From a virus, in the IMG/VR virus record IMGVR_UViG_3300034283_001460, positions 1 through 64,000 of that record: a DNA stretch of 64,000 bases; one strand, written 5' to 3'. The notes beneath the pieces were generated by a model. The model was not told the DNA's origin, made no database searches, and worked only from the letters and a program-made list of their open reading frames with translations. The position numbers were made by a program, and so were the translations under genes. This document shows positions 7,745-30,961 of the stretch, one piece after another; the stretch's first letter is position 1; every line of letters starts with the position of its first letter.

Positions 7745-8527
7745 ATGGCACTAAAAAGAGTTGAAGATTATAATAAGATTCTACCTATTGTAGAGCTTTA
7801 TACCTGCATACAGTCTGAAGGTTCAAGGGCAGGTAGACCTACTGTCGCCGTTAGGACTACCGGCTGTACCCACCGCTGCTATTTCGGTGAAGGGGGCTGG
7901 TGCGATTCTTGGTATACAAGCATTCACCCTGAAAAAGGTAAATATACCTTCCAGGATATTATCAATATTTACGATGCTAATCCTGAAATTAAGGAGATGA
8001 TGCTTACTGGAGGTTCTCCTTCGATGCACCCTACCATTGTAAATGAACTTACTCATTTTGCAAATGAAAGACAAATCATCATTACTATTGAAACTGAAGG
8101 AAGTCATTTCGTCGAAACAGATTACCCTCTTGGCCTTATTAGCTTCAGTCCTAAATTTAGCAATAGCGTACCTGTTTTGGGGGCTACTACACCCTTAGGA
8201 AGTACTGTAGATCAAAAGTTTATTGATACCCATAATCGTTTACGTTTAAATAAAGATTCTATTAAGCAATCAATGGCTTATCATTCTGATTACCATATGA
8301 AGGTAGTTGTTAATCCTGTTGAGCGTCCTGATGTTTGGACTGAGATTAGATCATTTATGGATGAGCTAGAGGTACCAAAAGACAAGATATGGATTATGCC
8401 CCCGGGTGATAATCGTGAAGAGCTAATCCGTGTTTATCCTATGGTAATTAATTGGTGTACTGAAAATATGTACAACTTCACAGGCCGGGAACATATCATT
8501 GCTTTTGATACTAAAAGAGAAGTCTAA
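7745..8527 (+). CDS. queE: QueE-like 7-carboxy-7-deazaguanine synthase (radical SAM)
   Basis: Radical SAM enzyme that turns carboxytetrahydropterin into 7-carboxy-7-deazaguanine. The cluster motif reads TTGCTHRCYFGEGGWCDS (about residues 32-49): three cysteines spaced C-x3-C-x7-C, with five residues inserted compared with compact C-x3-C-x2-C forms. LTGGSPSMHP near 90 is the SAM-binding GG motif. Length 260. Its stop overlaps the next ATG (TAATG). Confidence 0.93.
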   Translation: MALKRVEDYNKILPIVELYTCIQSEGSRAGRPTVAVRTTGCTHRCYFGEGGWCDSWYTSIHPEKGKYTFQDIINIYDANPEIKEMMLTGGSPSMHPTIVNELTHFANERQIIITIETEGSHFVETDYPLGLISFSPKFSNSVPVLGATTPLGSTVDQKFIDTHNRLRLNKDSIKQSMAYHSDYHMKVVVNPVERPDVWTEIRSFMDELEVPKDKIWIMPPGDNREELIRVYPMVINWCTENMYNFTGREHIIAFDTKREV

Positions 8528-23382: not shown

Positions 23383-23467
23383 GCACCAGTGATGAAATGG
23401 TAGACATGAGGGACTTAAAATCCCTTGGGCAGGAATGCTCGTGCCGGTTCGAGTCCGGCCTGGTGTA
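23383..23467 (+). tRNA. tRNA-Leu(TAA)
   Basis: Class II tRNA: acceptor GCACCAG/CTGGTGT (G-U at the first pair), anticodon stem AGGGA/TCCCT with loop CTTAAAA, long variable arm, T arm GCCGG/CCGGC, discriminator A. It precedes the two arrays. Confidence 0.93.
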
Positions 23468-23491
23468 CAAAAGAAAAAGTTTTTAAAAAAG

Positions 23492-23522
23492 TTGCCTTAA
23501 TAAAAAATTCTTCATATATTTA
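23492..23522 (+). promoter_or_regulatory. Bacteroidota-type promoter for a small RNA
   Basis: TTG 23492-23494, 20 bases, TATATTTA 23515-23522, then TATAACG. Followed by a terminated ~140-base RNA. Confidence 0.7.
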
Positions 23523-23527
23523 TATAA

Positions 23528-23677
23528 CGATGAGACACTGCTTTACATATAACGCGTCGTGGACACTTCCAGTGCAGAGCATTGAGAAGGATGGTCCTAT
23601 GTATGCCGGGTGAAGCAGTCTTAGAGTAACTACGAGACTACAGAAGCCCGGCCCCCAAAGCCGGGTTTTTTGTTTTT
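23528..23677 (+). ncRNA. candidate independent small RNA with own promoter and terminator
   Basis: Between the promoter and a strong terminator (CCCGGC 23647-23652 / GCCGGG 23660-23665, then TTTTTTG) lies about 140 bases with no convincing reading frame. ACTGCTT (23537-23543) pairs with AAGCAGT (23613-23619), and AGTCT/AGACT forms another helix. No known family recognised. A short in-frame peptide from ATG 23530 cannot be excluded. Confidence 0.55.
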
Positions 23678-23709
23678 AAGTAGTTACAAAAAAAAAAATA
23701 GCCGAAAAG

Positions 23710-23740
23710 TTGGACTGAAGTAAAAACGGTTCTATCTTTA
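23710..23740 (+). promoter_or_regulatory. promoter of tRNA array 1
   Basis: TTG 23710-23712, 20 bases, TATCTTTA 23733-23740. Confidence 0.75.
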
Positions 23741-23766
23741 GGTCACTGAGTCGGTAACACGGCGAA

Positions 23767-23790
23767 GTTCTTTGACATACTGGTAAAAAT
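23767..23790 (+). promoter_or_regulatory. boxA-like leader of tRNA array 1
   Basis: GTTCTTTGACATACTGGTAA then AAAT, directly before the first tRNA. CTTTGACATACTGGTAAAA recurs at 27183-27201 before array 2 and resembles the boxA antitermination element of Bacteroidota rRNA leaders. Confidence 0.65.
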
Positions 23791-23863
23791 GATTCCGTAG
23801 CTCAGTTGGTAGAGCAGTACACTTTTAATGTACGGGCCGTGGGTTCGAGCCCCACCGGGATCA
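23791..23863 (+). tRNA. tRNA-Lys(TTT)
   Basis: Acceptor GATTCCG/CGGGATC, anticodon stem GTACA/TGTAC with loop CTTTTAA, T arm GTGGG/CCCAC, discriminator A. First tRNA of array 1. Confidence 0.95.
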
Positions 23864-23866
23864 CAG

Positions 23867-23965
23867 GCGGTTATGCTTCCGAAGTGCTGGTTAGACTGAG
23901 ACACCTAATCGATGAGCCCATCAAAAAGTGAGTAGTTTTGTGGTAACTACTTAAAAGTAAACCGC
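23867..23965 (+). ncRNA. structured spacer RNA
   Basis: GCGGTT (23867-23872) pairs with AACCGC (23960-23965), enclosing a GGTTAG/CTAATC helix and a 7-bp hairpin AGTAGTT/AACTACT. The ends bring the flanking tRNA and tRNA-like RNA together. No known family. Confidence 0.5.
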
Positions 23966-23970
23966 AACAC

Positions 23971-24088
23971 AGTCAGGTGGCGGAATGGTAGACGCACGAA
24001 AAAGCAGGTGAGATACAGACTGCTCCAGCAATGGATGATCAAGTGTCCTTGGAAGGCTCACACACAGGTTCGATTCCTGTCCTGACTA
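23971..24088 (+). ncRNA. tRNA-Leu-like scaffold RNA 1
   Basis: 5' part AGTCAGG-TG-GCGGAATGGTAGACGC and 3' part ACAGG-TTCGATT-CCTGT-CCTGACT-A form acceptor, D and T arms of a leucine tRNA, but the ~68 bases between contain no anticodon arm. They fold as AGCAG/CTGCT, TCCA-GCAA-TGGA and CAAG-TGTC-CTTG, with GTGAG in the first loop able to pair with CTCAC before the T arm (pseudoknot). Confidence 0.75.
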
Positions 24089-24178
24089 CGATTCATAGTG
24101 AACCATCTATGAACACAACCAAAGAGTAATATTGGAGGAACTATCAAAGTGGTGACGGCTCGGAAAGACGAGTATTAT
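24089..24178 (+). other. structured spacer with GAAAGA-loop hairpin
   Basis: TTCATAG/CTATGAA 7-bp hairpin; TAATATT/AGTATTA long-range helix; hairpin CTCG-GAAAGA-CGAG (24159-24172) six bases before the next tRNA-like RNA. The same capped hairpin occurs at 24403-24420 and 28642-28657. Confidence 0.5.
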
Positions 24179-24250
24179 TGGACAGAGCAGGGTATTGCAG
24201 CTTGAGGTTCCTAGGCTCAAGAAGATGTGGTTCGAGCCCACACTGTCCAG
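24179..24250 (+). tRNA. tRNA-like gene with 9-base anticodon loop
   Basis: Acceptor TGGACAG/CTGTCCA, D arm GCA/TGC, T arm TGTGG/CCACA, discriminator G. The anticodon stem is six pairs (CTTGAG/CTCAAG) with loop GTTCCTAGG of nine bases rather than seven, and only one base joins acceptor and D stem. If a G-G mismatch closes the loop the anticodon would be CCT (Arg). Isotype left open. Confidence 0.6.
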
Positions 24251-24255
24251 CAAAC

Positions 24256-24339
24256 AGTCAGGTGGCGGAATGGTAGACGCAGTAGGGAGAGCCAAAGAGG
24301 TATCTACGAAAGTTACAGGTTCGAATCCTGTCCTGACTA
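24256..24339 (+). ncRNA. tRNA-Leu-like scaffold RNA 2
   Basis: Same acceptor, D arm and T arm as scaffold 1. The middle is 34 bases, close to normal class II size, but has no 5-bp/7-base anticodon arm; instead GTAG/CTAC encloses a small GCC/GGT hairpin. Confidence 0.72.
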
Positions 24340-24420
24340 CCTAGCCTTGATTTGGGGCAAGTGCTCGTACATGTTTGCGGGTAAGTCAATACTAAATCTA
24401 TACTGATGGAAAGACATCGG
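24340..24420 (+). other. structured spacer with GAAAGA-loop hairpin
   Basis: Ends in CTGATG-GAAAGA-CATCGG (24403-24420), abutting the next tRNA-like RNA. The upstream part contains GCAAGTG, also present in the 28577-28662 spacer. Confidence 0.45.
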
Positions 24421-24496
24421 AGTCGGGAAAAGTTGGCATCGGAATGAGCAGTTCGAAATGTTTCACCGAGTGCAGGTTCGAATCCTGTCCTGACTA
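24421..24496 (+). ncRNA. tRNA-Leu-like scaffold RNA 3 (divergent 5' half)
   Basis: Acceptor AGTCGGG pairs with the shared CCTGACT through one G-U; T arm GCAGG/CCTGT. The standard D arm is missing. A TCGG/CCGA helix closes an inner hairpin in place of the anticodon domain. Confidence 0.6.
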
Positions 24497-24668
24497 CAAA
24501 GTGTTGGTATCCAGGTGGGTGAAGTAGGGGATATACACTTAAATAAAACAACAACGGTGAAAATATGTAACGGCCGATAAACATAGAAGTAGCAACGAAG
24601 CCCGTGACACCAAGTAGATGCCTCCACGTGGCGGTGTTGGATAACCAACCAAATCTATAAATTAAAAT
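24497..24668 (+). ncRNA. structured spacer RNA
   Basis: GTTGGTATCC (24503-24512) pairs with GGATAACCAAC (24639-24649), 10 bp with one bulge. Inside is GGTGAAGTA...GATATACACTT, a motif shared with the spacers at 24974 and 27926. Confidence 0.5.
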
Positions 24669-24771
24669 AGTCAGGTGGCGGAATGGTAGACGCTAAGTGG
24701 GTACACACGATCCCTATTGCAGCAAGGTACACGGCGGCTGGGGAGTACAGGTTCAAATCCTGTCCTGACTA
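24669..24771 (+). ncRNA. tRNA-Leu-like scaffold RNA 4
   Basis: Standard shared 5' and 3' arms (T loop TTCAAAT). The ~53-base insert has GTG/CAC and a bulged CC..TTG/CAA..GG hairpin; no anticodon arm. Confidence 0.72.
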
Positions 24772-24846
24772 CGATGCTTAAAACTAAAACTGAGTGGTTG
24801 TCAGTTTATGTTACGCTTTGTTTACGATGGTTCGACTCCATCATAC
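24772..24846 (+). other. spacer containing a possible degenerate tRNA-like fold
   Basis: GATGG-TTCGACT-CCATC is a canonical T arm; upstream ACTGAGT (24789-24795) pairs six of seven with ATACAGT, whose last bases overlap the next scaffold. No D or anticodon arm is evident; a decayed tRNA is possible. Confidence 0.35.
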
Positions 24847-24973
24847 AGTCAGGTGGCGAAATGGTAGACGCAAATGCCACTCGGAGAAGAAGGAACTACG
24901 CCAACATCTCCTTGCAAGTGGTAGGGTATCCTAAAGAGTAAATCCCATACAGGTTCGAATCCTGTCCTGACTA
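24847..24973 (+). ncRNA. tRNA-Leu-like scaffold RNA 5
   Basis: Shared arms (D arm GCGAAATGGTAGACGC). The 77-base insert has a strong stacked stem GCCACT/AGTGGT plus GGAGA/TCTCC, then a second domain starting AGGGTATCCT. No anticodon arm. Confidence 0.75.
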
Positions 24974-25087
24974 CAGGGATATACACTCAAAAAGTGTTGT
25001 TAGCAATTCGAATTAGTACGGCTTTGTCTGAGCGAAATTCTTAGGTTGTATAGGCAGTGGAGCGACACCACATATCTTTTCTAAAAT
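24974..25087 (+). other. structured spacer
   Basis: Begins CAGGGATATACACTCAAAAA; GGGATATACACT is shared with the 24497 spacer. GTGTT and several short helices are possible, but no clear closing stem is seen. Confidence 0.4.
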
Positions 25088-25195
25088 AGTTAGGTGGCGG
25101 AATTGGTAACGCACATACAACGAGAGTTCTGCGGGCTCAACCATAAAGAGAGGTGTATGGTGGTATAAATACAGGTTCGAATCCTGTCCTGACTA
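25088..25195 (+). ncRNA. tRNA-Leu-like scaffold RNA 6
   Basis: Acceptor AGTTAGG pairs with CCTGACT (one G-U), D arm GCGGAATTGGTAACGC is slightly altered, T arm shared. The insert is closed by CATACA/TGTATG with GAG/CTC inside. Confidence 0.72.
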
Positions 25196-25199
25196 CAAT

Positions 25200-25274
25200 G
25201 CACCCTTAGCTCAGTTGGTTCAGAGCGTCTCGTTTACACCGAGAGGGTCGGAGGTTCGAATCCTTCAGGGTGCA
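25200..25274 (+). tRNA. tRNA-Val(TAC)
   Basis: Acceptor GCACCCT/AGGGTGC, anticodon stem TCTCG/CGAGA with loop TTTACAC, T arm GGAGG/CCTTC, discriminator A then CA. Confidence 0.93.
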
Positions 25275-25280
25275 CAAAAT

Positions 25281-25362
25281 GCCTGTATCGCATAGCGGCA
25301 ATTGCAGCTGACTGTAAATCAGCTCCCATTCGGGTTCGGAGGTTCGAGTCCTTCTGCAGGCA
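25281..25362 (+). tRNA. tRNA-Tyr(GTA), copy 1
   Basis: Class II: acceptor GCCTGTA/TGCAGGC, anticodon stem GCTGA/TCAGC with loop CTGTAAA, long variable arm, discriminator A. A second Tyr tRNA follows at 25521. Confidence 0.94.
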
Positions 25363-25520
25363 CAAAATTTAAGTTCCTTGTATCTCGTAAAGAGATTCCC
25401 GAAAAATAGACTGTCAGCTAGAAGTAGGGTATCGATGATAAGAGTTGAGGAGACGTAGAAGCGGGTGAATGAATTAGCACTAATAGGTCACCGACGTCGT
25501 GCCAAGCTTAAATTTTTAAC
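25363..25520 (+). ncRNA. structured spacer RNA between two tRNA-Tyr
   Basis: AAATTTAAG (25365-25373) pairs perfectly with CTTAAATTT (25507-25515). Inside is ATCTC/GAGAT and a CGACGTCG palindrome. About 150 bases; no known family. Confidence 0.55.
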
Positions 25521-25602
25521 GGGGGTATCGCATAGCGGCAATTGCAAGGGACTGTAACTCCCTCCTCATTCGAGTTCGGTGGTTCGAGTCCACCTGCCCC
25601 CA
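25521..25602 (+). tRNA. tRNA-Tyr(GTA), copy 2
   Basis: Acceptor GGGGGTA/TGCCCCC, anticodon stem AGGGA/TCCCT with loop CTGTAAC, long variable arm. Shares the ATCGCATAGCGGCAATTGCA D region with copy 1, so a duplication. Confidence 0.93.
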
Positions 25603-25607
25603 CACTC

Positions 25608-25681
25608 GCACTGGTAGCTCAATTGGATAGAGCACTTGACTACGGATCAAGAGGTTCGGGGTTCGACTCCCTGCCGGTGCA
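25608..25681 (+). tRNA. tRNA-Arg(ACG)
   Basis: Acceptor GCACTGG/CCGGTGC, anticodon stem CTTGA/TCAAG with loop CTACGGA; ACG needs A-to-I editing to read CGU/CGC/CGA. Discriminator A. Confidence 0.94.
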
Positions 25682-25763
25682 CTGAAGATGGTTATAACAA
25701 ATACCTGTACCAGAATACCGGTCAAAAATCAGGAATGTGTAGGTAGCGACTTACCGCTAAACA
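25682..25763 (+). other. spacer with short helices
   Basis: CCTG/CAGG and GGTA-GCGACT-TACC can form; no closing stem of the kind seen in the other spacers. Little else. Confidence 0.35.
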
Positions 25764-25836
25764 GGACCCGTAGCTCAGTTGGTAGAGCGTCGCCCTGAAG
25801 AGGCGAGCGTCAGCAGTTCGAATCTGTTCGGGTCCA
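25764..25836 (+). tRNA. tRNA-Phe(GAA)
   Basis: Acceptor GGACCCG/CGGGTCC, anticodon stem TCGCC/GGCGA with loop CTGAAGA, discriminator A. Confidence 0.95.
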
Positions 25837-25842
25837 CAGCAC

Positions 25843-25917
25843 TGGAATGTAGCTCAGTTGGTTTAGAGCACCTCGCTGATACCGAGGGGGTCGTAGGTTC
25901 GAGTCCTATCTTTCCAA
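25843..25917 (+). tRNA. tRNA-Ile(GAT)
   Basis: Acceptor TGGAATG/CTTTCCA with a T-T mismatch at the sixth pair, anticodon stem CCTCG/CGAGG with loop CTGATAC, discriminator A. Confidence 0.92.
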
Positions 25918-25921
25918 CAAC

Positions 25922-25995
25922 GGTCCTGTACCCAAGCGGTCAAAGGGAACTGTTTGCAAAACAGCCACTCGCTGGTTCGAATCCAGCCGGGACCT
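25922..25995 (+). tRNA. tRNA-Cys(GCA)
   Basis: Acceptor GGTCCTG/CGGGACC, anticodon loop TTGCAAA, discriminator T, which is the cysteine identity base. Confidence 0.93.
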
Positions 25996-26001
25996 CTACA
26001 G

Positions 26002-26072
26002 TACCCCGTCGTCTAATGGCAGGACAAATGACTTTGACTCATTTAATGGTAGTTCGAATCTATCCGGGGTAA
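26002..26072 (+). tRNA. tRNA-Gln(TTG)
   Basis: Acceptor TACCCCG/CGGGGTA, D arm of the Gln type (TCGTCTAATGGCAGGACA), anticodon stem AATGA/TCATT with loop CTTTGAC, discriminator A. Confidence 0.93.
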
Positions 26073-26077
26073 CAAAC

Positions 26078-26148
26078 GCGTCTGTAGTGAAAGGGTATCA
26101 TAGGGGTCTCCAAAACCTTTGTTGAGGGTTCGAATCCTTCCGGGCGTG
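26078..26148 (+). tRNA. tRNA-Trp(CCA)
   Basis: Acceptor GCGTCTG/CGGGCGT (three G-U pairs), anticodon loop CTCCAAA, discriminator G as expected for Trp. Confidence 0.9.
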
Positions 26149-26154
26149 CTAGAT

Positions 26155-26228
26155 GGCGAGGTAGCTCAGATGGTTAGAGCGCAGGATTCATAACCCTGAG
26201 GTCGGCAGTTCGATCCTGCCTCTCGCTA
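26155..26228 (+). tRNA. tRNA-Met(CAT), elongator type
   Basis: Acceptor GGCGAGG/TCTCGCT, anticodon region CAGGA-TTCATAA-CCCTG (A-C at the last stem pair), discriminator A. TTCATAA is typical of elongator Met. Confidence 0.88.
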
Positions 26229-26467
26229 CTAAAATAAGAGGACCTATCGCTTCAAAAGAAGAGGAAACTCAGGACATCACAGCTTAAGGTGGAAGATATA
26301 AGGTGTACGCCTTATCTCGCACGATTATAAGGTTACAGCCTTATAACATTACACCACCGAGGATGCAACCCGAAACAGTCTATAATGGTGAGCTGATTAG
26401 ACAAGGTAGGGGCAAAGATTAATGATAGGATAAAACAAGATCCTGGTTACTCTCTTATTTTAAACAT
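26229..26467 (+). ncRNA. large structured spacer RNA (~230 nt)
   Basis: TAAAATAAGAG (26230-26240) pairs perfectly with CTCTTATTTTA (26452-26462), 11 bp. Inside, ATAAGGTGTACGCCTTAT and TATAAGGTTACAGCCTTATA are strong hairpins, and GAGG-AAACTC lies near the 5' end. A resemblance to RNase P core (GAGGAAA) was considered but is too short to support. Family unknown. Confidence 0.6.
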
Positions 26468-26541
26468 GGTGGATGTAGCTCAGTTGGTAGAGCAATAGAT
26501 TGTGGTTCTATTGGTCGCGGGTTCGATTCCCGTCATTCACC
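26468..26541 (+). tRNA. tRNA-His(GTG)
   Basis: Acceptor GTGGATG/CATTCAC with the extra 5' G (position -1) opposite C73, anticodon loop TTGTGGT. Confidence 0.94.
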
Positions 26542-26550
26542 CTAAACAAA

Positions 26551-26638
26551 GGAAGGTTGGCTGAGTGGACGAAAGCGGTAGTTTGCTAAACTATTGATCG
26601 GGTTAACCGGTCCACAGGTTCGAATCCTGTACCTTCCG
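26551..26638 (+). tRNA. tRNA-Ser(GCT)
   Basis: Class II: acceptor GGAAGGT/ACCTTCC, anticodon stem GTAGT/ACTAT with loop TTGCTAA, long variable arm, discriminator G. Last tRNA of array 1. Confidence 0.94.
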
Positions 26639-26655
26639 CATTTTAGTTATTAATC

Positions 26656-27117
26656 ATGAACAAGGTATTTAAAAGCGGTACTACCGGCAGACCTATCAAC
26701 TTAATCAGTTACATTCTGGATTACATAAAAGAATATCCAGAGACAAAGATTTACGTTGGTACTGACTCCCAGAACAGGGGTCCGGAGACAATCTACGCTA
26801 CTACGGTAGTGCTGAGATACAGAACAAGAGGATGCCATGTTCTGTATTACAAAACAAGAGTTCCTCTGGTAAGAGATTTTTGGAGCAGGCTCTGGAGAGA
26901 GACAGAAATGTCAATCGAAACTGCTACATTTATTGTGGAGAATAGTCCTCTAAAGGTGGAGTCAATAGATCTTGACTTTAATGATGATGAGTATAAGGCT
27001 TCAAATAAATTAGTCTCTGCTTCTAAAGGATGGGTATCGGCTGCAGGCTTTAAGTCTACAACCAAACCTGCCCTGCAGATTGCAACCAGAGCAGCCGATC
27101 ACATTATCAGAAATTAA
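26656..27117 (+). CDS. RNase H-like protein (YkuK/DUF458 family)
   Basis: A 153-residue protein with IYVGTDSQNRG near residue 33 (first acidic residue of an RNase H-like fold), LWRETEMSIETA near 85, and SIDLDFNDDEYKASNKL near 112. This is the pattern of the YkuK/DUF458 family, predicted RNase H-fold nucleases of unknown substrate, frequently phage-encoded. It sits between two tRNA arrays, 17 bases after tRNA-Ser, so RNA processing is an attractive but unproven role. Confidence 0.8.
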   Translation: MNKVFKSGTTGRPINLISYILDYIKEYPETKIYVGTDSQNRGPETIYATTVVLRYRTRGCHVLYYKTRVPLVRDFWSRLWRETEMSIETATFIVENSPLKVESIDLDFNDDEYKASNKLVSASKGWVSAAGFKSTTKPALQIATRAADHIIRN

Positions 27118-27128
27118 TTCTGAAAGAG

Positions 27129-27159
27129 TTGCCAGAATGTAAAAACGTTCGTATCTTTA
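27129..27159 (+). promoter_or_regulatory. promoter of tRNA array 2
   Basis: TTG 27129-27131, 20 bases, TATCTTTA 27152-27159. Shares AATGTAAAAACG-like spacer text with the array 1 promoter. Confidence 0.75.
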
Positions 27160-27179
27160 TATAGTTGAAAGAGAACAAC

Positions 27180-27201
27180 GATCTTTGACATACTGGTAAA
27201 A
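27180..27201 (+). promoter_or_regulatory. boxA-like leader of tRNA array 2
   Basis: GATCTTTGACATACTGGTAA AAA; CTTTGACATACTGGTAAAAA is identical to the array 1 leader (23770-23788). Placed after the promoter and before an HNH gene and the tRNAs. Confidence 0.65.
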
Positions 27202-27257
27202 AAACTTAGACACGTTCTCGTGTTTTCCAAGCCTCTACCTATTTATATAAAAGAGGT

Positions 27258-27686
27258 ATGAGAAAAGAAACACGAGAAGACTTTCAAAAAGCTATAGAAG
27301 CTTCAAACTCTATGCAAGAAGCTGCTAGACTGTTGGGAATGAGCTACGATACTTTTAGAAGCTATGCTCGTAAGTACGGAGTTTTTAATCCTAATCAAGC
27401 GGGGAAAGGACGTATGAAGGCTAAAATTTATAAAGAGGCTGATGACGTATTTCAAAAGGTTGATAAACAGATCGGTAGAGCTATTGTAAAGAAATGGCTT
27501 CTGCAGGAAAGAGAGTATAGATGTCAAAAATGTGGAAATAGTGGGGAGTGGCAAGGAGAGCCTCTAGCTTTAGAGTTAGAACATATAAATGGAGATTCAC
27601 TTGATAATACGAGAGAAAATCTACTTATACTATGTCCTAACTGCCACTCCCAAACTTCTACCTTTAGAGGTAGGAAAATTAAATAA
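27258..27686 (+). CDS. HNH homing-type endonuclease with HTH
   Basis: A 142-residue nuclease. Residues about 10-40 (SMQEAARLLGMSYDTFRSYA) are a helix-turn-helix; near 90 the HNH block runs CQKCGNSGEWQGEPLALELEHINGD, then NLLILCPNCHSQT, with two C-x2-C zinc pairs and the catalytic His. This is the free-standing HNH layout of phage mobile endonucleases. It lies inside the leader of array 2 and its stop codon directly abuts tRNA-Leu(TAG), so it probably inserted between leader and tRNAs; the tRNAs would be transcribed through it. Confidence 0.88.
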   Translation: MRKETREDFQKAIEASNSMQEAARLLGMSYDTFRSYARKYGVFNPNQAGKGRMKAKIYKEADDVFQKVDKQIGRAIVKKWLLQEREYRCQKCGNSGEWQGEPLALELEHINGDSLDNTRENLLILCPNCHSQTSTFRGRKIK

Positions 27687-27760
27687 GCCCTCGTGACGGA
27701 ACTGGCATACGTACTAGACTTAGGATCTAGGTTTTGGGAGTTCGACTCTCCCCGGGGGTA
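27687..27760 (+). tRNA. tRNA-Leu(TAG) with short variable region
   Basis: Acceptor GCCCTCG/CGGGGGT, anticodon stem CTAGA/TCTAG with loop CTTAGGA, T arm GGGAG/CTCCC, discriminator A. The variable region is only GTTTT, whereas bacterial leucine tRNAs normally carry a long variable arm. Confidence 0.88.
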
Positions 27761-27769
27761 CAAAAATAT

Positions 27770-27843
27770 GGTCTCGTAGCTCAGCTGGATAGAGCATCGC
27801 ACTTCTAATGCGACGGTCATTGGTTCGAATCCAATCGAGATCA
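27770..27843 (+). tRNA. tRNA-Arg(TCT)
   Basis: Acceptor GGTCTCG/CGAGATC, anticodon stem TCGCA/TGCGA with loop CTTCTAA, discriminator A followed by an encoded CCA. Confidence 0.95.
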
Positions 27844-27850
27844 CCACAAT

Positions 27851-27923
27851 GGTCGGTTCATCTAGGGGTCTAGGATGTTACCCTTTCACGGTAGACACAC
27901 GGGTTCGAATCCCGTACCGACTA
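27851..27923 (+). tRNA. tRNA-Glu(TTC)
   Basis: Acceptor GGTCGGT/ACCGACT, anticodon stem TTACC/GGTAG with loop CTTTCAC, discriminator A. Confidence 0.93.
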
Positions 27924-28034
27924 CAAAAGTGTTAACCACCCGACCTACTAGGGTGAAGTATCGAGTACGATATACTTGAATAGAATAGGTGGCTACCATA
28001 AGAACGCCATAAACTCGTTAACACTTTCTTATAT
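27924..28034 (+). ncRNA. structured spacer RNA with 11-bp closing stem
   Basis: AAAGTGTTAAC (27926-27936) pairs perfectly with GTTAACACTTT (28017-28027). CACCC/GGGTG forms a hairpin whose loop ACCTA can pair with TAGGT (27986-27990), a possible pseudoknot, and AAGTATCG/CGATATACTT a bulged hairpin. Carries the GGTGAAGTA...GATATACTT motif. Confidence 0.6.
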
Positions 28035-28106
28035 CGCGGGATAGAGCAGAGGTAGCTCACAAGGCTCATAACCTTGGGGTCGGAGGTTCGATTCCTTCTC
28101 CCGCAA
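28035..28106 (+). tRNA. initiator tRNA-fMet(CAT)
   Basis: Acceptor CGCGGGA/TCCCGCA with an unpaired C1-A72, the hallmark of bacterial initiator tRNA. Anticodon stem CAAGG/CCTTG with loop CTCATAA, discriminator A. The stem lacks the usual run of three G-C pairs. Confidence 0.92.
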
Positions 28107-28113
28107 CTAGATA

Positions 28114-28187
28114 GGGGGATTAGCTCAGCTGGCTAGAGCGACTGCCTTGCACGCAGTAGGTCAACGGTTCGACTCCGTTATTCTCCA
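28114..28187 (+). tRNA. tRNA-Ala(TGC)
   Basis: Acceptor GGGGGAT/ATTCTCC, anticodon stem ACTGC/GCAGT with loop CTTGCAC, discriminator A. The G3-U70 pair, the alanine identity element, is present. Confidence 0.94.
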
Positions 28188-28276
28188 CTAAGAAGTGTCG
28201 CAATACGCGTTTCAATCTGATTGATAGACGTATCAATAAAAGATGTCCGGAGGTGAAAATCCTTAGCTTCTTAAAT
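28188..28276 (+). ncRNA. structured spacer RNA
   Basis: TAAGAAG (28189-28195) pairs with CTTCTTA (28267-28273); inside are ATACG/CGTAT and TCAAT-CTG-ATTGA hairpins. Confidence 0.5.
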
Positions 28277-28384
28277 AGTCAGGAGCGGAGTGGCTCCGTG
28301 ATCGCAACTTAAAGAGATAGTCATACGAACTTTATGTGTCAGGCTATGTACGCGGTAGAACAGGTTCGATTCCTGTCCTGACTA
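28277..28384 (+). ncRNA. tRNA-Leu-like scaffold RNA 7 (altered D arm)
   Basis: Acceptor AGTCAGG/CCTGACT and shared T arm. The D arm is changed: GCG/CGC remains but its loop contains a CGGAG-TGG-CTCCG hairpin. The insert has ATAG/CTAT and ATAC/GTGT helices. Confidence 0.68.
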
Positions 28385-28435
28385 CGAGGCTATATTTTTG
28401 CATGTTTATTATAGCGAATAAAGAAAACATGCGTT
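28385..28435 (+). other. spacer hairpin
   Basis: GCATGTTT/AAACATGC, an 8-bp stem with an 18-base AT-rich loop, just before scaffold 8. Confidence 0.5.
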
Positions 28436-28576
28436 AGTCAGGTGGCGGAATGGTAGACGCACCCAAAGTATGTGAGGGAAAAATAATCATATAGGTTGCT
28501 GCCTTAAGGTAGTAAGGCCTGAAAGTTTAAACTTTTAATTGTAAAAGTTATACAGGTTCAAATCCTGTCCTGACTA
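28436..28576 (+). ncRNA. tRNA-Leu-like scaffold RNA 8
   Basis: Shared arms exactly as in scaffold 1 (T loop TTCAAAT). The ~91-base insert holds CTGCC-TTAA-GGTAG and AACTTTT-AATTGT-AAAAGTT hairpins and a TATG/CATA helix. Confidence 0.74.
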
Positions 28577-28662
28577 CACAATCAGCCACAAGAGGATTGG
28601 CATTGAGTTGTTGCAACTAAACAAAATGCAAGTGGTTGACAGCTTGGAAAGACAAGCAACAT
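28577..28662 (+). other. structured spacer with GAAAGA-loop hairpin
   Basis: GCATT/AATGC encloses AGTTG-TTG-CAACT; then GCTTG-GAAAGA-CAAGC (28642-28657) five bases before scaffold 9. AAGTGGT.GAC before the hairpin matches the 24089 spacer. Confidence 0.5.
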
Positions 28663-28895
28663 AGTCAGGTGGCGGAATGGCTACTTCAACCCCGCGCAGT
28701 CGGAGCAATAGATACGGTTCGAATCCGTTGTGGGGTCAATGAGTAGTTTTGGTAGACGCAGGTTTGTAGGTTACGTGCCACGAGATGAAAGCAACCTTAA
28801 TATCGGAGTTAACAACCGAAAAGATAGTTAAACTATTGACCTGAATTGACAGGAAGTTAAATAATGGCTTACAGGTTCAAATCCTGTCCTGACTA
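28663..28895 (+). ncRNA. tRNA-Leu-like scaffold RNA 9, with nested tRNA-like insert
   Basis: Largest scaffold (233 bases). Shared acceptor and T arms; the D loop is split after GCGGAATGG by about 70 bases (28681-28750), then resumes GGTAGACGC. The usual anticodon position holds a further ~115-base structured insert. Confidence 0.72.
28681..28750 (+). ncRNA. mini tRNA-like insert in the D loop of scaffold 9
   Basis: CTACT/AGTAG closes a fold in which ACCCCGC (28689-28695) pairs with GTGGGGT (28730-28736), with a T arm (ACGG-TTCGAAT-CCGT) and a D-arm-like GC-AGTCGGA-GC but no anticodon arm. About 48 bases, far below tRNA size. Confidence 0.6.
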
Positions 28896-29110
28896 CAATG
28901 AGTAAGAGATACTCAGAGTCTTTAATCCAAGACTTAAACAATGGATAGGGTATTGGGCCGGACATCCTTAAACGCCGGTTTCGTGGGAACAAAGGAGAGC
29001 GACACACCTCCTCCCAGTAGTGTTGACTTTTTCAAGGTGTAAGAACCGCAGGGTTTTGAAAGCAAAAAACCGGGAATATCTACTCACTGGAATCTCAGGT
29101 GGGGTAATTT
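28896..29110 (+). ncRNA. large structured spacer RNA (~215 nt)
   Basis: TGAGTA (28899-28904) pairs with TACTCA (29091-29096). Inside: AGTCTT-TAATCC-AAGACT, GGAT/ATCC, stacked TGGGA/TCCCA with AGGAG/CTCCT, and GGTTTT/AAAACC. Family unknown. Confidence 0.58.
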
Positions 29111-29184
29111 GGTGCGGTAGTTCAGTCGGTTAGAATACAGGCCTGTCACGCCTGGGGTCGCGGGTTCGAGTCCCGTCCGCACCG
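29111..29184 (+). tRNA. tRNA-Asp(GTC)
   Basis: Acceptor GGTGCGG/CCGCACC, anticodon stem CAGGC/GCCTG with loop CTGTCAC, discriminator G. Confidence 0.95.
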
Positions 29185-29323
29185 CTATAGAAACAGAGGA
29201 GGCGTAGAGCAACTAGCCGGGAGAGCGGCGACGCAAGGGTACACACTTAGTAGCTCTCTTATTGGTGTGTGAAGCTTCTTAGTCAGATTCCTGATAAAGT
29301 TGTTCCTGTTTCTTTTGTATATT
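29185..29323 (+). ncRNA. structured spacer RNA
   Basis: AGAAACAG (29189-29196) pairs with CTGTTTCT (29306-29313). Inside: GCGT/ACGC enclosing GCCG/CGGC, ACACAC/GTGTGT, and TCAG-ATTC-CTGA. Confidence 0.58.
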
Positions 29324-29408
29324 GGAGGTTTGGCAGAGTGGTCGATTGCGGTAGTCTTGAAAACTATTGACTGTAACAGGTCCCGGGGTTCGAATCCCTG
29401 AGCCTCCG
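29324..29408 (+). tRNA. tRNA-Ser(TGA)
   Basis: Class II: acceptor GGAGGTT/AGCCTCC, anticodon stem GTAGT/ACTAT with loop CTTGAAA, discriminator G followed by encoded CCA. Confidence 0.94.
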
Positions 29409-29412
29409 CCAT

Positions 29413-29485
<73 letters not shown>

Positions 29486-29509
29486 CTAACTTTTAAATCC
29501 CCCTTTCTT

Positions 29510-29701
29510 ATGTCAAAAGCAGAGAAAATTCTCTACATGGTTATGTACACCTTGTTCACCGTTGGTACAATCCTTGCAATTGCTCGTAATGAATACGGCC
29601 ATGCAATCTGGGTTATCACCGGGTTTATGTGGATGCATAACGCCTTTACCAATCGCCGGGAAGTAATTAAGCTCCAGGAAGAGTTGGAAAGTACAAAGTA
29701 A
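29510..29701 (+). CDS. small two-pass membrane protein, 63 aa
   Basis: Begins MSKAEKILYMVMYTLFTVGT; two hydrophobic segments (about residues 7-24 and 29-45) and a charged C-terminal tail (KLQEELESTK). It lies between tRNA-Pro and a lipoprotein gene within array 2. No recognised family. Confidence 0.65.
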   Translation: MSKAEKILYMVMYTLFTVGTILAIARNEYGHAIWVITGFMWMHNAFTNRREVIKLQEELESTK

Positions 29702-29714
29702 GTTCATATATTTA
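29684..29714 (+). promoter_or_regulatory. Bacteroidota-type promoter (small lipoprotein)
   Basis: TTG 29684-29686, 20 bases, TATATTTA 29707-29714, then TATAAG; same variant as 23515. Confidence 0.72.
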
Positions 29715-29746
29715 TATAAGTTAATCAATTAATTAAATTCAAAGTT

Positions 29747-29902
29747 ATGAAAAATTTCATGCTTATGGCTGCTGCCGTTCTCGCTCTTGCTTCTTGCGCT
29801 AACACCGAAGAAGTAGCTGTTGAAGAAGTATCAGTAGACACTACCGCCGTAGTAGAAGATACTACTGTAGTAGCAGAAGGTGACGAAGCAGCTGCAGAAT
29901 AA
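29747..29902 (+). CDS. small acidic lipoprotein, 51 aa
   Basis: MKNFMLMAAAVLALASCANT is a textbook lipoprotein signal with the Cys at residue 17. The mature ~35 residues are almost only Glu, Val, Thr, Asp and Ala in a repetitive pattern, probably disordered. It has its own promoter inside the tRNA array. Function unknown; similar tiny acidic lipoproteins are common in Bacteroidota genomes. Confidence 0.7.
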   Translation: MKNFMLMAAAVLALASCANTEEVAVEEVSVDTTAVVEDTTVVAEGDEAAAE

Positions 29903-30029
29903 TACTGAGTCTAGCCTCCAAATCCTAATAGCCGAAAGGTGATGGTTAGGTTGACGTGGGAAAAGTCAACAACAGAGCAGGGGAAGAGCGTGAACCAATA
30001 AGCGCCTCGTCGAAATGCTTCCCCAATTT
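29903..30029 (+). ncRNA. structured spacer RNA
   Basis: CCTAA/TTAGG (29924-29950), TTGAC/GTCAA hairpin, and GGGGAAG (29980-29986) paired with CTTCCCC (30018-30024). Confidence 0.55.
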
Positions 30030-30102
30030 GCCTCCATAGCTCAGTTGGTAGAGCTGCTGATTTGTAATCAGCAGGTCGGCGGTTCGAGTCCGTCTGGAGG
30101 CT
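30030..30102 (+). tRNA. tRNA-Thr(TGT)
   Basis: Acceptor GCCTCCA/TGGAGGC, anticodon stem GCTGA/TCAGC with loop TTTGTAA, discriminator T. Confidence 0.95.
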
Positions 30103-30251
30103 CAGCAGTTACCTGATTTAGCACTAGGACGGTAACAACCATTGGAGGAAGCTAACCTCACGAATGGTCCTGTAGGTTGTCGATTAATCGCGTAAAGTTT
30201 CCTACCAGGTAGAGTAGGTGAGTCCTTGTTGGTGATAAAGCTCTACCGTTT
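30103..30251 (+). ncRNA. structured spacer RNA
   Basis: GTTACC/GGTAAC (30108-30136), ACAACC (30135-30140) with GGTTGT (30175-30180), ACCATT/AATGGT, and GGTAGAG (30208-30214) with CTCTACC (30241-30247). Confidence 0.52.
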
Positions 30252-30324
30252 GCGAAAGTAGCTCAGTTGGTAGAGCATGACCTTGCCAAGGTCAGGGTCG
30301 CCGGTTCGAACCCGGTCTTTCGCT
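30252..30324 (+). tRNA. tRNA-Gly(GCC)
   Basis: Acceptor GCGAAAG/CTTTCGC, anticodon stem TGACC/GGTCA with loop TTGCCAA, discriminator T. Confidence 0.95.
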
Positions 30325-30329
30325 CTAAT

Positions 30330-30402
30330 GCGGTAATAGCTCAGTTGGTAGAGCACGTTCCTTCCAAGTACGGGGTCGCAGGTTCGAATCCTGTTTACCG
30401 CT
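30330..30402 (+). tRNA. tRNA-Gly(TCC)
   Basis: Acceptor GCGGTAA/TTACCGC, anticodon region CGTTC-CTTCCAA-GTACG with one T-T mismatch in the stem, discriminator T. Confidence 0.91.
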
Positions 30403-30706
30403 CAAAAGTAATGTGGCTGAATAAAGGGTTAAGAGTCCTTAAGGCACTGGTCGATCTGCTGAAAAGCAGTGAGGTTGGGTCATACAGACATATGAGTTAA
30501 AACCACTCAAACTATAGGGTAGAATGCGCAACCCGGTAGTCAATGAGGTCCCGCCAAGTGAGATAATTATGATCTTTGCAACGGGTGCTGGTAGTCAAGC
30601 CAGCTGGTCATTACAGCAGAACTAGCTACTCTGTTGGACCATGGGTGAAAAGGGGTATGTCCAGGACGTGTAGGTAGTCAGGAATCCTATCATTATTTTT
30701 TTTTAA
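30403..30706 (+). ncRNA. large structured RNA (~300 nt) between tRNA-Gly and tRNA-Asn
   Basis: No plausible gene in about 300 bases. Hairpins: TTAAG-AGTC-CTTAA, CTGCT-GAAA-AGCAG (30456-30469, GNRA loop), TGAGT/ACTCA, long-range ACCCG (30531-30535) with CGGGT (30582-30586), CTGG/CCAG, CAGCAG/CTGTTG and TGGAC/GTCCA. GGTAGTCA occurs three times (30535, 30590, 30673). A T9 tract lies near the 3' end. No match to RNase P, tmRNA or group I intron that I can recognise. Confidence 0.6.
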
Positions 30707-30778
30707 GCTCATGTGGCGCAGTGGTAGCGCAGTAGACTGTTAATCTATTGGTCGTTGGTTCGAATCCATCCATGAGCG
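30707..30778 (+). tRNA. tRNA-Asn(GTT)
   Basis: Acceptor GCTCATG/CATGAGC, anticodon stem GTAGA/TCTAT with loop CTGTTAA, discriminator G. Confidence 0.95.
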
Positions 30779-30803
30779 CTTAATTTACCAGTATGTCAAA
30801 AAT

Positions 30804-30877
30804 GGGCCTGTAGCTCAGTCGGTTAGAGCGAGGGACTCATAATCCCCAGGTCCCAGGTTCGAGCCCTGGCAGGCCCA
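30804..30877 (+). tRNA. tRNA with CAT anticodon (Ile2 or Met)
   Basis: Acceptor GGGCCTG/CAGGCCC, anticodon region AGGGA-CTCATAA-TCCCC, discriminator A. The body resembles tRNA-Ile2, whose C34 is changed to lysidine to read AUA; elongator Met is the alternative. Confidence 0.9.
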
Positions 30878-30961
30878 CACTTAAACTAAACATAAACTTA
30901 AGTTAAACTTGATAAGAGAGTTTAATTCTATCTTATAATAAGATTAATTAACTTAACGATT

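Follow-up and report, generated by a model that had tools for sequence, protein, structure and literature searches.

Candidate natural tRNA scaffolds with exchangeable inserts in phage tRNA arrays

The transfer RNA (tRNA) island of a phage holds nine tRNA-Leu-like elements in which a different insert stands in place of the anticodon arm and the variable region. They lie in a 64,000-nucleotide (nt) stretch (the window) that is part of the 66.4-kb IMG/VR virus record IMGVR_UViG_3300034283_001460, and sequence comparison makes it very probable that they represent a natural tRNA-scaffold class of non-decoding RNAs, apparently an undescribed one. A preliminary description of the window, made from its letters alone, had proposed such a scaffold with constant ends and variable cargo, and the proposal is now backed by relatives in hundreds of contigs, covariation in the core, an encoded C74, and inserts that are conserved and exchangeable. 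All nine elements are present on the + strand where that description had placed them (Table 1), and a 25-base pattern spanning T arm, acceptor and A73 gives nine exact matches in the window, with none expected from shuffles. The description overlooked a second insertion slot and the non-obligatory status of the acceptor sequence AGTCAGG.

Relatives were collected by scanning viral contigs, which are partly redundant, with one exact 25-base 5′ pattern and three 3′ patterns, for at least 120 stretches each. The resulting set, seeded by the AGTCAGG acceptor, contains at least 560 distinct AGTCAGG...CCTGACT elements with a median length of 104 nt. The 3′ pattern occurs 1–18 times per record in 40 of 40 phage records (46–373 kb) and the reversed control pattern in 0 of 40. 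Only 12 stretches were obtained from bacterial and archaeal genomes (257 Gb, 84,980 genomes), nearly all of them titled as metagenome-assembled contigs, and none of 50,697 records of deposited phages has a scaffold match. From these scans the elements appear to be abundant in environmental (water-sample) phages, mostly of Bacteroidota by host guess.

The acceptor had been described as shared by all nine elements. Its pairing is indeed kept throughout, but the elements at 24421 (AGTCGGG) and 25088 (AGTTAGG) deviate at one base. A scan seeded by the D arm alone gave at least 120 stretches; among the 120 listed, 63 overlap scaffold-seeded loci and 57 are new. About half of the new stretches proved to be ordinary tRNA-Leu and 13 or more to be scaffolds whose acceptors are unrelated yet pair, which argues that AGTCAGG is the commonest and preferred acceptor version and no requirement; as an obligatory recognition sequence it was rejected. 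A scaffold with another acceptor (L498; other stretches are given by such numbers throughout) even holds an insert that is found under AGTCAGG in L020. Free variation of the acceptor with compensation argues against a single synthetase reading this stem, a point that bears on the earlier idea that the RNAs might conceivably be charged with leucine.

Compared with decoding tRNA (Rfam RF00005), the elements have the acceptor, D and T arms and the conserved elbow contacts, and five of the nine in the window score above 29 bits. Conservation is strong at T8, A14, the GG of the D loop and the TTCRA of the T loop; U54-A58 never varies (100%), and acceptor and T-stem pairs covary through compensated changes. 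The D arm, called tRNA-Leu-like from the outset, has a mean of 14.9 of 19 matches to tRNA-Leu vs at most 11.8 for every other isotype; the tally of six unchanged D arms has to be corrected for the element at 28663, in which a 72-base module (28679-28750) splits the D loop. The tertiary (Levitt) pair 15-48 switches from A-U to G-C within the AGTCAGG class (391/18 vs 3/12, Fisher p = 6e-13), and given A14, A15 is accompanied by T48 in 90% and G15 by C48 in 80%. The two positions are distant in the secondary structure, and their covariation is a specific signature of a folded tRNA core. At the 3′ end, 99% of 560 elements encode C74, a feature shared by nearly all of the window's ordinary tRNAs, and positions 75-76 are mostly not CA, a trailer that would be expected for enzymatic completion of CCA.

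Central inserts are highly diverse. Among 631 non-nested elements (mostly AGTCAGG, plus some other acceptors and a few odd tRNAs) they form 417 clusters, including 302 singletons, counts that depend on the BLAST threshold; sampling is far from saturated, and a Chao-type estimate puts the repertoire at about a thousand. The preliminary description called the inserts self-folding. Folding of the nine window elements recovers the acceptor in nine and the T stem in seven, and singly the inserts are not unusually stable (z +1.0 to −1.8), so the claim stands on comparative evidence and not on individual energies. One insert family from 21 stretches has a 7-base-pair (bp) helix, all of whose pairs (7/7) are intact in each of the 7 distinct sequences, with three Watson-Crick types at two helix positions; its covariation is 0.449 compared with 0.148 when shuffled (0/500 reach the observed value) and at most 0.129 for slid helices. 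Over 35-odd insert families, both sides change in 45 of 420 predicted pairs, and only 41 of 1,727 cells (~2.4%) are broken; these figures overstate the support for the structures, because RNAalifold chose them on the same alignments.

The second slot lies in the D loop, where hairpin modules sit between GAA and GGTAGACGC. On present sequences, the D-loop slot and the slot at the anticodon plus variable region assort independently. Module X, which fills the D-loop slot of element 9, is joined to the central insert of element 8 in L463 and L465. A further D-loop module, Y, is combined in L106 with element 9's central insert and in L066 with a different one. Module Z accompanies four different central inserts, and core sequence W accompanies two. 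Some central inserts also recur under different acceptors. Such combinations indicate that modules have been recombined between slots across phages.

The preliminary description had itself named ordinary anticodon arms interrupted by introns in relatives as evidence that would speak against it, and the relatives show no such arms. A 5-bp hairpin with a 7-nt loop and U33 is found at the anticodon position in 49 of 533 elements, compared with 36.8 ± 5.6 in shuffled sequences and 980 of 1,018 ordinary tRNAs. Removal of the insert leaves no complete anticodon arm, nothing arm-like lies on either side of it, and the shortest elements (54–72 nt) are too short for an intron and an anticodon arm together. 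Intron-bearing tRNA was therefore rejected as the identity of the elements, and conservation across phages contradicts the decay expected of pseudogenes. Some elements do score as tRNA in Rfam or ARAGORN (element 2 reaches 44 bits in Rfam, yet is without an anticodon arm), and a few resemble real tRNAs on the same frame, such as four with a Lys-like CTTTTAA or ATTTTAA loop; even so, we consider tRNA genes with introns or decaying tRNA pseudogenes extremely improbable. Scarcely better is the prospect that these are mobile DNA cassettes, with AGTCAGG/CCTGACT serving as terminal inverted repeats or recombination sites and an incidental resemblance to tRNA. Shuffling of modules and the HNH and GIY-YIG endonuclease genes near many loci would suit cassettes. 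However, orientation is not independent of the surroundings, given that every element with an ordinary tRNA less than 3 kb away shares the strand of the nearest one (371 of 371), and a transposon or cassette was rejected on this test. Compensated acceptor changes, conservation of C74 and of tertiary positions in the D and T loops, and covarying helices kept in the inserts also speak against it, and strand bias together with the Levitt-pair covariation largely refutes cassettes.

As to function, our confidence is evenly divided over what we regard as the best explanation overall, namely that tRNA-Leu-derived non-decoding RNAs display exchangeable modules that bind host factors. Many different, structurally conserved and exchangeable domains on a stable frame fit protein-binding baits or inhibitors best, plausibly directed against host RNA-directed factors including those of defence, a specific role that we rate as slightly less likely than not. 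The core would derive from tRNA-Leu, with its acceptor stem, D arm, T arm and elbow, and the insertion-tolerant positions (the D loop, and the whole anticodon and variable region) would carry exchangeable folded modules. RNase P and a 3′ tRNase would cut the RNAs from the tRNA-array transcript and CCA would be added, as in tRNA maturation, and stable L-shaped RNAs would accumulate that present the module at the site normally taken by the anticodon. The modules might then, less certainly, serve as baits or inhibitors of host RNA-binding factors, RNA-targeting defences among them, and exchange between phages by recombination at the constant arms would produce a large, changing repertoire. More speculatively, the system may be a combinatorial RNA display, in which a two-slot frame draws on a shared pool of probably around a thousand or more modules that serve either as aptamer-like inhibitors or as mimics of host RNAs. 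If true, such display would amount to an evolvable equivalent, made of RNA, to the repertoire of anti-defence proteins.

Several results count against host-factor binding by displayed modules. Insert energies are weakly better than shuffled (mean z −0.66 ± 0.08 over 250 elements). Mimicry of ribosomal RNA (rRNA) as a general rule was rejected, given that score distributions are the same for real and reversed rRNA in a panel of E. coli, Bacteroidota, beta- and alpha-proteobacterial, Bacillota and Actinomycetota sequences with reversed and complemented controls. An 11-mer match antisense to neighbouring phage sequence is found in 60 inserts vs 58 shuffled ones within the fetched stretches, a pooled insert query against 61 Bacteroidota genomes gave no match in a search without a positive control, and no partner protein gene is constant beside the arrays, whose commonest neighbours are terminase and homing endonucleases. 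Only D-loop module Y stands out in the rRNA comparisons: it holds TTAGTAGTGGCGAGCGAAC, with 19 nt identical to flavobacterial 23S rRNA and the 18-nt loop closed by a different stem, and it looks like a grafted 23S rRNA loop. The insert family of L038 and relatives resembles the 16S 530 region, a suggestive likeness within the range of the controls, and the insert of element 5, which holds TCCTAAAGAGTAA, shares 13 nt with E. coli 23S rRNA, which is within chance.

The same RNAs could instead be regulatory, with modules that bind or pair with phage or host messenger RNAs or ribosomes to time expression, and a core that provides stability only. Their place in tRNA arrays and their conserved structured inserts would agree with this, as would the stability known to come from tRNA-like cores in work with recombinant tRNA scaffolds. 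We nevertheless consider regulation rather unlikely, given that antisense matches are not in excess, the pooled query is unmatched, and conservation favours structure over open, single-stranded seed regions. Decoys for anticodon nucleases, a role raised in the preliminary description, are unlikely because the anticodon arm that such enzymes would cut is missing. Decoys or replacements could also act against host tRNA-cutting defences that read the elbow or position 48/49. Septu and retron-Eco7 cleave tRNA-Tyr in the variable loop near 48/49, to which phages respond with a higher tRNA dose (PMC13096335), and the elements retain position 48, the T arm and the elbow. However, a plain decoy needs no cargo, and hundreds of conserved, exchanged inserts would be left unexplained. 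We judge this improbable for the class, and variable-loop-edge decoys against Septu-type enzymes possible for a subset of elements.

Among known RNAs, T4 RNA C is the closest precedent. T4 RNA C and RNA D (species 1 and 2 RNA) are stable RNAs of ~120–140 nt from the phage tRNA cluster, with no assigned role (PMC3014915). Our scan finds a 91-nt anticodon-less tRNA-like core in the 3′ part of RNA C, with the canonical T arm CCGGGTTCGAATCCCGG; like RNA C, the elements lie in a phage tRNA cluster, have a 3′ T arm and lack an anticodon arm. RNA C differs in being a single RNA with a 5′ extension and unrelated sequence, without a Leu-type D arm or a family of exchangeable inserts. Transfer-messenger RNA (tmRNA) likewise keeps D arm, T arm and acceptor and has a large insert in place of the anticodon arm, but this identity was rejected: the AGTCAGG class has U3-A70 and not the G3-U70 identity pair, there is no tag reading frame, and ARAGORN lists 27 tRNAs for the window but no tmRNA. 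Each phage group, moreover, has tens of different inserts. GOLLD and ROOL are noncoding RNAs of phage tRNA islands, and the GOLLD linker sometimes holds tRNAs (PMC12286853). The elements share only this neighbourhood with them; GOLLD and ROOL are far larger, nanocage-forming, unrelated in sequence and without a tRNA-core frame, and their Rfam covariance models have no match in the window. One array with tRNA-core elements also contains a GOLLD RNA (L217 8832-9239, 336 bits) and another a freshwater-1-like RNA (L007 4124-4186, 70.1 bits with a cut-off of 72); apart from tRNA, these are the only families among the matches listed in Rfam scans of related arrays. The best YrlA score, 29.3 bits vs a family cut-off of 69, falls over ordinary tRNAs in the window.

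Tenacibaculum phages pT24 and Gundel_1 have, within their tRNA clusters, 'undetermined' tRNA-like genes whose anticodon loops are abnormal or absent, and the crAss-like phage cr4_1 from the human gut (L536 5943-6025) has an unannotated tRNA-like element with a D arm, a canonical T arm and, where the anticodon belongs, a 9-nt loop. These three differ in their acceptors and D arms, and are single cases that form no recognised class. In recombinant tRNA scaffolds, a cargo RNA replaces the anticodon arm for processing and stability; such scaffolds are man-made, whereas the elements are natural and have a second, D-loop slot and module exchange. To our knowledge, natural tRNA scaffolds with interchangeable cargo have not been described before. 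Rfam 15 has no family for tRNA-core elements, and no description of such phage tRNA-like RNAs or decoys was found in the open-access papers searched. Elements of this kind are liable to be mis-annotated as odd or undetermined tRNAs. Their many natural variants make the role of stable RNAs from phage tRNA clusters, a question since T4 RNA C and D, testable, and the frame could be adopted as it stands to deliver stable RNA in Bacteroidota. Should the modules prove to bind host proteins, a list of host RNA-binding targets could easily be read off from each phage.

Table 1 Elements and other features of the tRNA island, with copies of module Y in other stretches
Feature	Position	Strand	Description
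tRNA/noncoding RNA island	23383..30878	+	Holds 27 ordinary tRNA genes (+ strand throughout) with elements in between
Element 1	23971..24088	+	118 nt; central insert ~93% conserved in L125, also in L136/L142
Related tRNA-like element (tenth)	24179..24250	+	Acceptor TGGACAG/CTGTCCA, G73, C74; 9-nt loop at anticodon position
Element 2	24256..24339	+	84 nt; shortest central insert among those with canonical D arm
Element 3	24421..24496	+	76 nt; acceptor with G-U pair; divergent D arm
Element 4	24669..24771	+	103 nt
Element 5	24847..24973	+	127 nt; D arm GCGAAAT
Element 6	25088..25195	+	108 nt; acceptor with U-G pair; homologous inserts in L027, L308
Minimal RNase P RNA-like gene	26231..26465	+	Inside the array; RF00010 49.7 bits, E 3e-13; RF00373 48 bits
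Element 7	28277..28384	+	108 nt; divergent D arm AGCGGAGTGGCTCCGT
Element 8	28436..28576	+	141 nt; central insert recurs in L464, L050, L463, L465
Element 9	28663..28895	+	233 nt; both insertion slots filled
D-loop module X of element 9	28679..28750	+	72-base hairpin with internal T-arm-like GGTTCGAATCC
Central insert of element 9	28760..28870	+	Paired in L106 with a different D-loop module (Y)
Module Y copies	L106 8065; L066 420	− (L066 420)	23S-like loop (E. coli region 240-257) on a new stem

The genes neighbouring the array in the window encode a family A DNA polymerase, GroEL, thymidylate synthase, QueC and a protein with a type IX secretion system (T9SS)-type C-terminal domain; together with bacterial contigs of similar sequence they point to Bacteroidota phages, as a likely host and no assignment. 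The stretch around element 3 (24312-24694) is 82.5% conserved in L240. The same phage has a homologue (7850-8090, 71% identical) of the RNase P RNA-like gene, which is ~231–235 nt long and has conserved GAGGAAA and ACAnAA...GGTTA motifs, with scores below the curated cut-offs. Its product is a possible maturation enzyme for the elements; no report of a phage RNase P RNA was found in the open-access papers searched.

An untranslated stretch of ~210 bases directly after element 9 (28896-29107) is 71–79% conserved in L023, L117, L107, L298, L321 and L005, in phages that differ in gene order; it has no Rfam match and is probably another noncoding RNA of the islands. Two more conserved spacer RNAs (putative) lie at 28191-28271 and 27929-28024, one of them ~90% identical in L298 and L005 and one closed by GTGTTAAC/GTTAACAC. 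The region 30392-30700, which is 82% conserved in L023, weakly matches the manA RNA motif (31 bits, E 4e-5). Finally, a recurring element family in L026, L101, L217, L218 and L272 has a T-arm-like hairpin at the position of the D arm and a GGGTAGCTCCC hairpin ahead of the true T arm, an arrangement that resembles a permuted tRNA elbow.

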